NCBI RefSeq assembly: GCF_001719125.1
Contig: NZ_CP017006.1
Location: forward strand, 620,001 to 684,000
Source of the DNA: Sulfolobus sp. A20
GTDB lineage: Archaea > Thermoproteota > Thermoprotei_A > Sulfolobales > Sulfolobaceae
Direction of reading: 5' to 3'
Length of the DNA: 64,000 nt
How positions within the stretch are numbered: position 1 is the first letter of the stretch; each line of letters opens with the position of its first letter. This document shows positions 53,568 to 58,615 of the stretch, piece after piece. The translations under genes and the position numbers were made by a program. Below the pieces are notes generated by a model. It made no database searches and had not been told where the DNA came from. It saw only the letters and a list, made by a program, of their open reading frames with translations.

Positions 53568-53897
53568 ATGGGTGGAGCTTCAAAGAAACCTATTTCCAAT
53601 TTAGAAAAGAAGCTGAAGAAGGAAGCTGAAAAACAACAGAAGGCAGAGGAAAAGAAGAAAGGTCCTTCAAAGACTGGAAAAGAAGTGATAAGTAGAGCCG
53701 TAACAATAGATGATGAAACTAAGAGAAAAGTAATTGATGAGATAAAGAAAGAAAGTATGGTTACACCTTACACACTAGCCTCTAAATTAGGTGTGAGTAT
53801 AAGTGTTGCAAGAAAAACGTTAAAAGAGCTCGAAACTCAAAACGTAGTGAAACTATATTCTAAAAATAGACGCCTAAGCTTATACATAGCAGCGTGA
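53568..53897 (+). CDS. rps25e: Ribosomal protein eS25
   Basis: 109 residues. Lys-rich N-terminal tail, then a winged-helix-like core: VTIDDETKRKVIDEIKKESM, TPYTLASKLGVSISVARKTLKELE, NVVKLYSKNRRLSLYIA. This is the archaeal/eukaryotic S25e of the small subunit. Converges on the nitrilase-like gene with a 2-bp gap. Confidence 0.92.
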   Translation: MGGASKKPISNLEKKLKKEAEKQQKAEEKKKGPSKTGKEVISRAVTIDDETKRKVIDEIKKESMVTPYTLASKLGVSISVARKTLKELETQNVVKLYSKNRRLSLYIAA

Positions 53898-53899
53898 AG

Positions 53900-54787
53900 C
53901 TATTCCTCTTCTTCTGTAGCAGAAGTAGATCTTCTTTTTACATCTCCTCTGATCTTTTTCACACCCTTACATAGATTGTTGATGACTGGCTCTAAGTAAG
54001 TTATTGAAAGTTGCTTTGATGTGGGAATTAGCACTGAGCTTTCTACTAAAACCACTGTATCATCTTCTTCTGCCTCCTTTACTATAAGATTATTTGGAGA
54101 AGTAACAAATGTAGGAGAATACCCTATTATTTCACCCTCTTCATTTTCAATACTTTCTCCAACTATTAAGTAGGGTATATCATTTTCTATTGCTCTCGCA
54201 ATTGCTAAATGTTTCACTATTTGTTGCTTCTTAGTATCAAGAGCCTTCATAGTACCTATCACTATTTCTGCTCCACCTAGTGCTAGAAGTCTGCTGATTT
54301 CTGGAGATAAAACGTCGTCTTCAGCAATTATTCCATATTTCTTATCTAAGACCACATTTACTGGTTCTTTTCCAGAAGATATACCTAGCCTTATATCTTT
54401 CTCAGATAAAACGGACTTCCTATATTTGCCTATAATTTCACCTTGCGGGGAGATTATAAGGGAAGTGAGAAATATTTTAGGACCAGCTTGCTCCAGTATT
54501 GGTCCAACAATTAGATGAACTTCTCCGTCCATTGCTAAATTTATTAGCATATCTGTATTATTGCCAGGTATTTTCTCAGCTAGGTTTTTTATATAACTCC
54601 TTAATTTTTTATCATTATCATAGATTTCAAAGATATTACCTGAAGGAAATAGAGATGGTAATATAACTAACTTTGCTCCTTTTTCCTTAGCCTGCTTTAT
54701 TAGTTTTTTTGCCTTCTCCAAATTATGTTTTCTTGATAATTCTTTAAGCCTTAGATGAATTAATGCAATAAGCAAAACATTCACCAA
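53900..54787 (-). CDS. Nitrilase-fold protein without the catalytic triad
   Basis: 295 residues with the carbon-nitrogen hydrolase fold ([42 protein letters not shown]). The catalytic Glu of LPE is Ser here, and the nucleophile Cys of ICYD is replaced (IAEDD); only the Lys remains. It should not hydrolyse amides and is probably a pseudoenzyme. It begins 1 bp after the reverse gyrase stop (TTG, with GTG 54784 as alternative), so it is cotranscribed with it. The tail is Lys/Glu-rich. Confidence 0.82.
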
Positions 54788-57700
54788 TTACTTAATTGTT
54801 TGTATTTCATCATATAATTCTTTTAAGACTTCTATATAATCAACTTTGCCATCCTCTATTTTACTCATTTTCTCTAACAAATTACTAGTCCTGTCCTCAG
54901 AGACAATAAGTGAATACTTAGAGTTAAGATAATTATAGACCTCTTTACCTATATCTGTTGGAACTAATTTCTTTAACGTCTTTGATTCTACCACGTATCT
55001 TCTCTTCTTTAAAGTAGATATTATAGTTGCATAAGTGCTAGGTCTTCCTATTTGCTTTCTTTTCATCTCACTTACTAATTCACCTTCAGTATATAATTGT
55101 ATCGTGCTTCTAGTGATTACGTTAATAACTTCCGCAGAATATTCATTTCCTTCAGCACTCTTATCGATAGGTGAATATAGCTTAAATGGAATGTACAAGG
55201 CGGATTCTAGGACATGCGTGAATTCTTCGCCCTCCTTTATTTTATAACCTATAACTAATTCAATTTTATCGTTCTCTAGCTTCAAGTCTATCTTCTCTTC
55301 ATTAAGTGAATATGCCCTTATATTAATTATCTGTTTATTAAGAACTAAGGAGGGTAATTGGCTAGAAACGAATCTCCTAAATATTAAGTCATAGACCCTG
55401 AAGTGATTTAGGGTAAGTCTCTTAGGTATATCTATATCTCCCTCTTCAATAGATGCCCTTAATAATTTCTCGTCAAGCGGACGAGTAGGTCTAATTGCCT
55501 CATGAGCACCACCTTCCCCCCAAGTTCTCGGCTTAAACACTTTATTAATGTCTACTTGTTTAGATTTCAAATAGCTTTCGGCAACACTTATCCCGATATT
55601 AGAGATTCTTGTACTATCAGTCCTGTGATAAGTTATCAAACCTAGCTCAAATAGATCTTGAGCTATTTTCATAGTTTCAGAGGCAGATATTCTTAGGATA
55701 GAGGAAGAATCTGATAAAAGTGTATCAGTAGTATATGGAGGAAGAGGACCAAACTCCTCACTATTCTCACTGACTTTCTCAATCCTCACTGTTACTCTAT
55801 CACCTTTCTTCAAGTTAGCTTGTTTGGGAATTGTTAGATAATATTGAGTTAAAGAACCCGTAGTTTCAGACAAAATACTAAGTTTAGCTATTAAGAACTT
55901 CTTCTTATTTTTTGGATTTATATAATCCTCATATCTTTGAACTACCCAGCCTAATACCGGAGTCTGAACTCTCCCTGCACTCAAGTTCTGATTCCTATTA
56001 CAATTTAACGTTTCAATTCTCTCTATCCTTTTCTGTAATTTTTCTTTAGACTTCTCATTTTTACTTGAACTAACCTTCTCCTCCAATTTAGGCAATTGTT
56101 TCTTAATATTTTCACAATAATTACTCCAAAATTCAGTTTGAACCTTCTCTGAGAGCTTAAATCCCAACCATCGATCCTCTATCCTTCTTACTATCTGAGC
56201 TTTAATGAGTTTTAAATCGAATTCTCTAGGATTATTTATCGCATTTGTAATAGCCCTTCTGGTTACCTCATGAAATTCAGCCCTCCTTATATTATTATTA
56301 TAAGGTCTTATAGCCAAGTAAATATCCCATGCAATTTTCTCTCCTTCAGTATCTGGATCAGTACCTATCAGAACTTCATCAGCTTCTAAAGCTAATTCCC
56401 TTAAAATTCTCACAGTATCTGTTTTATCAGAAACTATTGGTGAACTACATATAGGACATTTATCCGTTTGAATGTCTTGCACTATCTGATGTCCATTAGT
56501 GCATCGCTTTATCGTAGAATACAATGGAATGAACTTATGGTCCTTTACTGTTACACCATATATTTTCGATTCTCCCTCTTTTGAAATGTTATACTCACTA
56601 TCAGTTACTAAGTCATAAACGTGCCCACCACTAGCAGTTACAATTAATAGTCTGTCCCCTAACACGGTTTCATATACTTTAATCCTTCCGTAAGTCCTAG
56701 AGGAAGGCTTAGAGAAGAAATTTGCTATAGTTCTAGCCTTGTTTGGTGACTCGACAATAAGTAATGTAGTCTTTACTTTCAATGATGAAGGAGAAATCGT
56801 ACCTTCAGTCTTGATCTTTCTCAGATTTTCCCTCTCTTCGCTTATTTTAGTTATAATATCGTCTAAGGAAATATTACCAATCTTATTCTCATCTAATTCA
56901 AATGGGAGCCAATTAATCTCATCTAAAATTAAACTTAACTTTTTATTAAGTATGTCAAACAATTTTTCATTGTCAATTAATAATACTGAGAGCCCGGTAG
57001 TAAGAGCTGATCCATATAATCTAGAAGTTCTCCCACTGGCTTGTATATAAGTCAGATAGTCAGGCATTAATATGTAGTCTCCGCTTAAAACTATATCGCC
57101 TATTTCAGTGATTCTATCTAATATTTGTTTATCCTTTAAAGACTGATTTAATATTTCATAGCCCTTTTTAATCAATGGATCATCAATTTTATCTTCTTTT
57201 ATATCTTTAGCTAACATAGCTAAAGCAGCAGGTGATATATTCCTTAATCTTCTACGAATATGACCTAAAATCTTTCTTAATTCCTCATCGTTCTTAATCA
57301 ATGAAATTATACTTAATAATCTAGTTAAAACTAACGGATGTACCGTTTCCCCGATCTTGAACTTAAACTTAGGTATTCCAACGAACACTGCATACTTGAT
57401 TCTCCAAGGCAAATCTATGCCCCTAACTAATACCCCGTAATGGGTAGCAACTCCTACTAAAACGTCTATAGATTCTCTTTCAAAGTCTTCCAACTTGCTA
57501 ATAGATGATGATAGTATAGAAACTGCATTTATTCCGTGGCTGCTTAGAATAGAAGCTAACTTATCCGCGTATGAAGCACCTTTTTCTATTGGAACATAAA
57601 CTAAGGTACCATCTCTCAATCTTTTTATTAGTTTTATTAATATTTCAATTATACATTCTTCATTTAATTGGTTATCACAAGTCTTGTTTAAGTTGATATA

Positions 57701-58615
57701 ACTATCAACGATATTCCTTAAGTAAATAATTGAGCCTCCCGGTCTAAAACCCATTAAAGCTGATAAGGTAGGGTTGCCTCTACTTATAGTAGCAGATGAG
57801 AAAATTACTGTCCTATTACCTAATTTTGAGGCTCTAATTTCTTGTATTTTACCGAATTTCTGTTCATCTTCTATATTTTCCCTAAGTAAACTTTTTACTC
57901 TCTGTATATCATCCTCACTGAAACCTATAAGCCTTAAGATTGAATTAGCGCTCTTACTAGATTTCAGTGCAGCATCCACATCATCAACAAATATGAAGTT
58001 AAAATCAACGTTAAGTAAATCCTCTAAATTCTTAATTAGATATCTACTTGTAGTTAAGAATATATCAAAATTACCCTTAACTAATTCTTTTAATATGTTT
58101 TCATTTTTATTGTCGGAAGATTGCTTATTATACAATATTTGCAAAGGCTGTGAGACAGCATCTGAAAATTTAGATAGTTTATCCTTAGCTTGAAGAACCA
58201 ATGTTCTAGTTGGAAAGATCATTATTGACTTTTTGCCGTTCATAGCATTATATATCGACATTAATAGACCAAACGTAGTTTTACCTAATCCAGGAGGAGC
58301 TACTATTGCAAAGCTTTCCCCTCTAAGAAACCTTATCACCCATGACCTTTGTGGACCTAAAGGCTTGGAGTTTAATGCAATTTGAAATATTTTCTCTATA
58401 TTATTGTATTCGTTAAATATGTTGCGTAATACTTTTAATTTTATCAGTCTATTATTTTTGTACAATACTTCTATAAGATTACGTATATCTTCAAATTTCA
58501 AATCATCCTCTAAACACGATTCGCATACTGAACCCTTATATAATCTATCTGCCGTTATATCGTTTCCACAGTTTGGGCAAGATTTAGTGTAAACTGAGTA
58601 AGGAATCTCCTCCAA
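54788..58615 (-). CDS. topR1: Reverse gyrase (TopR1-type)
   Basis: 1275 residues. N-terminal zinc finger (CPNC at 13-16, CESC at 31-34), helicase-like domain with Walker A APPGLGKTTFG (about 106), DDVDA (motif II) and the latch-containing second RecA domain (to about 600), then a topoisomerase IA domain: TOPRIM LLIVESPNKARTI (about 620), second zinc site CTNGH...CPICSS, DPDTEGEKIAWD, and the active Tyr in GLITYHRTDSTR (about 995). It introduces positive supercoils with ATP and marks hyperthermophiles. TTG start. TopR1 rather than TopR2 is inferred from its Cdc48 neighbour as I remember it in S. solfataricus. Confidence 0.93.
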   Translation of the reverse strand: MEEIPYSVYTKSCPNCGNDITADRLYKGSVCESCLEDDLKFEDIRNLIEVLYKNNRLIKLKVLRNIFNEYNNIEKIFQIALNSKPLGPQRSWVIRFLRGESFAIVAPPGLGKTTFGLLMSIYNAMNGKKSIMIFPTRTLVLQAKDKLSKFSDAVSQPLQILYNKQSSDNKNENILKELVKGNFDIFLTTSRYLIKNLEDLLNVDFNFIFVDDVDAALKSSKSANSILRLIGFSEDDIQRVKSLLRENIEDEQKFGKIQEIRASKLGNRTVIFSSATISRGNPTLSALMGFRPGGSIIYLRNIVDSYINLNKTCDNQLNEECIIEILIKLIKRLRDGTLVYVPIEKGASYADKLASILSSHGINAVSILSSSISKLEDFERESIDVLVGVATHYGVLVRGIDLPWRIKYAVFVGIPKFKFKIGETVHPLVLTRLLSIISLIKNDEELRKILGHIRRRLRNISPAALAMLAKDIKEDKIDDPLIKKGYEILNQSLKDKQILDRITEIGDIVLSGDYILMPDYLTYIQASGRTSRLYGSALTTGLSVLLIDNEKLFDILNKKLSLILDEINWLPFELDENKIGNISLDDIITKISEERENLRKIKTEGTISPSSLKVKTTLLIVESPNKARTIANFFSKPSSRTYGRIKVYETVLGDRLLIVTASGGHVYDLVTDSEYNISKEGESKIYGVTVKDHKFIPLYSTIKRCTNGHQIVQDIQTDKCPICSSPIVSDKTDTVRILRELALEADEVLIGTDPDTEGEKIAWDIYLAIRPYNNNIRRAEFHEVTRRAITNAINNPREFDLKLIKAQIVRRIEDRWLGFKLSEKVQTEFWSNYCENIKKQLPKLEEKVSSSKNEKSKEKLQKRIERIETLNCNRNQNLSAGRVQTPVLGWVVQRYEDYINPKNKKKFLIAKLSILSETTGSLTQYYLTIPKQANLKKGDRVTVRIEKVSENSEEFGPLPPYTTDTLLSDSSSILRISASETMKIAQDLFELGLITYHRTDSTRISNIGISVAESYLKSKQVDINKVFKPRTWGEGGAHEAIRPTRPLDEKLLRASIEEGDIDIPKRLTLNHFRVYDLIFRRFVSSQLPSLVLNKQIINIRAYSLNEEKIDLKLENDKIELVIGYKIKEGEEFTHVLESALYIPFKLYSPIDKSAEGNEYSAEVINVITRSTIQLYTEGELVSEMKRKQIGRPSTYATIISTLKKRRYVVESKTLKKLVPTDIGKEVYNYLNSKYSLIVSEDRTSNLLEKMSKIEDGKVDYIEVLKELYDEIQTIK

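Follow-up and report, generated by a model that had tools for sequence, protein, structure and literature searches.

The window, a stretch of 64,000 nucleotides of the Sulfolobus sp. A20 genome, carries on its negative strand a nitrilase-like open reading frame, here called NIT, directly after the gene of the reverse gyrase TopR1. In the Sulfolobaceae topR1 is the gene partner of NIT and is transcribed in the same direction. The features of the locus, by window position, are:

53568-53897, positive strand: ribosomal protein S25e, convergent neighbour of NIT
53900-54787, negative strand: NIT, the pseudo-nitrilase open reading frame; counted from the first TTG it has 295 codons plus stop, and from the likelier start 291
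54320-54322, negative strand: Glu156 codon; the residue stands in for the catalytic Cys
54416-54418, negative strand: codon of Lys124, the sole triad residue kept
54653-54655, negative strand: Ser45 codon; the residue stands in for the catalytic Glu
54773-54775, negative strand: TTG, residue 5, the likely true start codon of NIT, aligned with the conserved Sulfolobaceae MLI start
54781-54785, negative strand: GGTGA, a Shine-Dalgarno-like motif after the stop of topR1 and ahead of the start of NIT; it recurs across Sulfolobaceae
54788-58615, negative strand: topR1, a TopR1-clade reverse gyrase of 1275 aa
58682-60922, positive strand: CDC48-type AAA ATPase, next to topR1 and divergent from it

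The reading frame lies where the preliminary description placed it. That description had NIT starting 1 bp after the topR1 stop; the direct succession holds, but the gap is 0 nt, the called TTG abutting the TAA of topR1. Judged from sequence, the true start is more likely the TTG at 54775-54773, 12 nt past the topR1 stop, because GGTGA precedes it and the same GGTGA-MLI layout recurs across the Sulfolobaceae. In comparison within the Sulfolobaceae, NIT homology begins at MLI, with GGTGA a few bases ahead. Of 92 adjacent pairs, 75 have a NIT frame that opens no later than the stop codon of the gyrase, an arrangement that looks like the pattern expected of translational coupling. A scan with bacterial-type promoter and terminator models, which are uninformative for archaea, gave no excess over shuffled sequences, and an Rfam search gave no match. 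The transcription unit of the Sulfolobus shibatae reverse gyrase was reportedly mapped by Jaxel in 1996.

The nitrilase fold is kept in NIT, as the preliminary description proposed. Residues 7-247 match the PF00795 CN_hydrolase profile (E 3.9e-27, 95.6 bits against a cut-off of 23.2), and sequence comparison also finds archaeal nitrilases of known structure. The AlphaFold model (pLDDT 90.8, pTM 0.87) has nitrilases for all of its top Foldseek matches, with E of 1e-18 to 1e-22 and TM of about 0.7. NIT is thus a member of the nitrilase superfamily by fold, and of the residues that define a nitrilase enzyme it has the catalytic Lys but neither the catalytic Glu nor the nucleophilic Cys. In alignment with Pyrococcus PH0642, LPELF reads LPSLF in NIT, with Ser45 for the catalytic Glu; GKYRK is retained, with Lys124; and the GVMICFDW..PE motif is altered, with Glu156 for the catalytic Cys. 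The archaeal nitrilase/amidase PH0642 (1J31, 6YPA) and the P. abyssi nitrilase (3IVZ) share the fold of NIT over a full-length alignment at about 27% identity, along with the Lys, the second Glu and the R.EN motifs, whereas the NIT group has Ser, Ala or Pro for the catalytic Glu and Glu or Asp for the catalytic Cys. Against NCBIfam nitrile_Arch (NF040852) NIT scores 85.8 bits, compared with a curated cut-off of 500, and is therefore not an equivalog member. The solved folds closest to the NIT model are those of mouse Nit2 (2W1V), yeast Nit3 (1F89) and a plant N-carbamoylputrescine amidase (5H8K); unlike NIT, these have a wild-type Glu-Lys-Cys triad and no link to a topoisomerase.

The loss of the triad Glu and Cys, also claimed in the preliminary description, extends to the relatives of NIT. 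Neither residue is present in any of 107 loci that are linked to a reverse gyrase or orthologous (0/107), and a shift in position of the active-site residues, which would have undone the claim, is ruled out in the same set. The Lys is present in 97 of the 107. The two other nitrilase-family paralogues of the same genome carry Glu and Cys in canonical motifs, and Glu-Lys-Cys is found in 20/20 unlinked nitrilases of the phylum, with Glu kept in a further set. In a phylogenetic tree 41 dead and 29 canonical proteins are split by a single branch (SH-aLRT 100). Since the dead copies form one clade and the canonical nitrilases of the phylum keep the triad, the triad was lost once, anciently. By these alignments and this tree, NIT belongs to an old line of pseudoenzymes in the nitrilase superfamily that arose a single time.

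Substitution patterns indicate that NIT is under strong purifying selection. NIT identity exceeds TopR1 identity, the latter taken from the C-terminal part of TopR1, in 29/29 Sulfolobaceae pairs (mean 68% versus 53%, or +15 points). Rough dN/dS values for Sulfolobaceae pairs are 0.035-0.055 for NIT and 0.08-0.16 for TopR1, both approximate as synonymous sites are near saturation, and dN/dS of NIT is at most 0.23 in every pair tested. A pseudogene or a gene in decay is rejected by these ratios together with the conservation of the protein.

The preliminary description, which saw in NIT a possible structural partner or regulator of the topoisomerase, had called for a check of the pair and of the lost residues for conservation across Sulfolobales. 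The conservation is borne out, and the tie is specific to TopR1 and far deeper than a narrow Sulfolobales; it is not obligate, since each gene also occurs without the other. Within the order a NIT match is found in 181 of 197 genomes. Of 70 loci taken by E-value order (L001-L070), one is cut by a contig end, and 58 of the 69 evaluable loci have a reverse gyrase immediately upstream of NIT with the same orientation. The topR1-NIT pair is present in 31/31 Sulfolobaceae and reaches 10 of the 11 families of the order, including Pyrodictiaceae, Acidilobaceae, Fervidicoccaceae and Desulfurococcaceae-like families. Later loci of families f2, f3, f6 and f10 were partly picked for co-mapping of both genes and so give reach, not frequency. 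Outside the order the pair occurs in families f13 and f14, and a third family, f12, has NIT at a locus cut by a contig end. The pair is absent in a gene-by-gene comparison of 13 genomes from nine other families of the phylum and at 20 further non-linked loci; elsewhere in the phylum, the closest relatives of NIT are ordinary nitrilases that do not adjoin a reverse gyrase.

Specificity for one paralogue is evident from a tree of 95 reverse gyrases, in which all NIT-adjacent enzymes (62/62) fall within the TopR1 clade. Adjacency of NIT to TopR2-clade enzymes is 0/21, so that linkage to TopR2 is rejected, and adjacency to reverse gyrases of a third clade is 0/5. This third clade, neither TopR1 nor TopR2, is well supported and is represented by L237, L239, L241, L248 and L249, from genera of families f2, f5 and f10. 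Among 74 loci, 61 have a same-strand reverse gyrase at position -1 of NIT, and the next commonest immediate neighbour is found in 18. Genome-wide synteny as the sole cause of the pair is rejected, as flanking genes vary while topR1 and NIT stay together.

Several further observations concern the neighbourhood of the pair. In 18 of 74 loci (L155, L156, L158-L164 and others) the gene directly after NIT, in the same orientation, encodes a protein of about 120 aa, which lies nearby in 16 more; it has no Pfam or PDB match, and none is found in the genome of the window. A KaiC-family ATPase gene often stands between CDC48 and TopR1 (L033, L034, L045, L155, L158, L162), and this arrangement suggests an older cluster, CDC48 / KaiC-TopR1-NIT. 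Reverse gyrase frames of 1500-1890 aa adjoin NIT at L107, L115 and L082 and probably contain inteins or large inserts.

Separation of the two genes has occurred naturally several times. Two genomes of genus g65 (G158, G150) have an intact NIT directly preceded by the remains of TopR1, broken up and at different stages of decay; the pseudogene fragments are at L165:7340-8410 and L292:5640-6090. In Caldisphaera and relatives (genera g33 and g37) the sole reverse gyrase belongs to the TopR2 clade and NIT is kept, and in genus g15 TopR1 is gone and NIT is kept. Where it could be estimated, dN/dS for the NITs of these TopR1-less lineages is 0.07-0.23, a sign of continued purifying selection. Conversely, TopR1 is kept and NIT is gone in family f7, and in Pyrodictium both genes persist, separated. 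The two genes thus do not co-occur obligately, there being three losses of TopR1 with NIT kept and one converse case; the tie is strong but not obligate either way, and NIT is not an obligate TopR1 subunit. A match to reverse gyrase turned up in each of the 197 genomes searched in the order, in 194 of them above the curated cut-off, which leaves no genome free of reverse gyrase as a contrast for a general link of NIT to this enzyme.

Taken together, the sequence data are best explained by NIT being a non-enzymatic protein, co-expressed with TopR1, whose role in DNA topology or genome upkeep outlasts TopR1 itself, and we give this reading an even chance of being correct. NIT would be translated from the topR1 mRNA by way of its own GGTGA at the junction, whereby the supply of NIT would follow that of TopR1. 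Its task in the heat, in the topology of the DNA or the upkeep of the genome, would be that of a scaffold or binding protein akin to nitrilase dimers. Where TopR1 is present NIT probably acts with it, and where TopR1 has been lost NIT probably works with another partner, either a different reverse gyrase or a shared partner in DNA maintenance. Where the Lys is lost without replacement by Arg the acid at the Cys site is lost too (acid present in 0/9), these losses representing about two clades. This pattern suggests that the Lys and the new Glu or Asp form a buried charge pair. Such a charge-swapped pair would preserve the folding of the former pocket, which may serve as a site for a ligand or a peptide. 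The occurrence of NIT without TopR1 in three lineages and of TopR1 without NIT in one means that the tie may be one of shared expression and not of function. A broader form, in which NIT assists DNA supercoiling generally across the order as an accessory factor, made together with TopR1 and serving other reverse gyrases after loss of TopR1, is possible if doubtful.

A serious rival to the DNA-topology role, though the less probable of the two, is that NIT is a housekeeping protein with an unrelated job, for example in translation or metabolism, that is held behind topR1 by the promoter and by translational coupling. Such a protein could be expected to outlive the loss and decay of TopR1 and to evolve more slowly, as NIT does; the dissociation of the pair in Pyrodictium and the presence of S25e and a tRNA methyltransferase near NIT in some lineages also fit. 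Set against this are the persistence of the pair while flanking genes reshuffle, the restriction of the linkage to the TopR1 paralogue, and the fact that most lineages never relocated NIT.

That NIT is instead a dedicated subunit or regulator, binding TopR1 and tuning temperature-dependent positive supercoiling, perhaps in place of a degraded second zinc finger, is unlikely. Linkage to TopR1 only would be expected of such a protein, and PMC8185306 describes TopR1 as a homeostatic, temperature-responsive enzyme. The TopR1 of the window has a second zinc finger without its second Cys (CTNG..CPIC), and this Cys is lost in about 17 of 62 NIT-linked TopR1s as against 0/33 other reverse gyrases, in keeping with a trend described in PMC6878951. 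However, the correlation falls short of significance inside the TopR1 clade (p 0.18), and the finger is intact in 45 of the 62 linked TopR1s, so that compensation by NIT for loss of the finger was rejected. Intact NIT genes also occur in genomes whose TopR1 is missing or reduced to a pseudogene, and family f7 has TopR1 without NIT. It is more likely that NIT overlaps with TopR1 in function and reaches beyond it than that NIT is a dedicated TopR1 subunit.

Re-purposing as a new enzyme or ligand sensor, with the kept Lys and the new Glu or Asp as a catalytic or ligand site, is quite unlikely. Lys124 and Glu99 are nearly invariant among NIT copies, and 88 of the 97 copies with the Lys have Glu or Asp at the Cys site, as a new site would have it. 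Against it, no nucleophile is conserved, and families f2 and f3, in which both the Lys and the acid are lost, still retain the linked gene and the fold; an f2 copy that lacks all three triad residues is predicted to adopt the nitrilase fold (pLDDT 89.9). That NIT is a nitrilase in decay, to which the missing triad and the fast divergence of families f2, f3 and f10 might point, has next to no chance of being the explanation, being already contradicted by a single ancient loss followed by the low dN/dS values of all pairs tested and of the Sulfolobaceae in particular.

Additional information on the partner gene can be garnered from previous studies. According to PMC6878951, reverse gyrase alone among proteins is present in every hyperthermophile and missing from every mesophile, and PMC8185306 presents TopR1 as the temperature-responsive reverse gyrase paralogue. 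The passages searched in four accounts of TopR1 (PMC4183072, PMC8185306, PMC6878951, PMC5535833) make no mention of a downstream NIT gene. A literature search gave no account of the NIT gene or of the topR1-NIT pair, nor any data on expression, binding or genetics of NIT, and its novelty is provisional as many subscription papers fall outside the scope of that search. Provisionally, NIT represents a new clade of pseudoenzymes within a known superfamily, and its genomic tie is both unusual and deep.

The association of a dead enzyme with one reverse gyrase paralogue for the age of the order, with better conservation than TopR1 itself, offers a handle on why this lineage has two reverse gyrases. 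Loss of TopR1 with retention of NIT, in conjunction with the non-essential nature of topR1 in Sulfolobus islandicus (PMC6249222), makes the role of NIT practical to test. Within the nitrilase superfamily, NIT would be a clear conserved pseudoenzyme clade.
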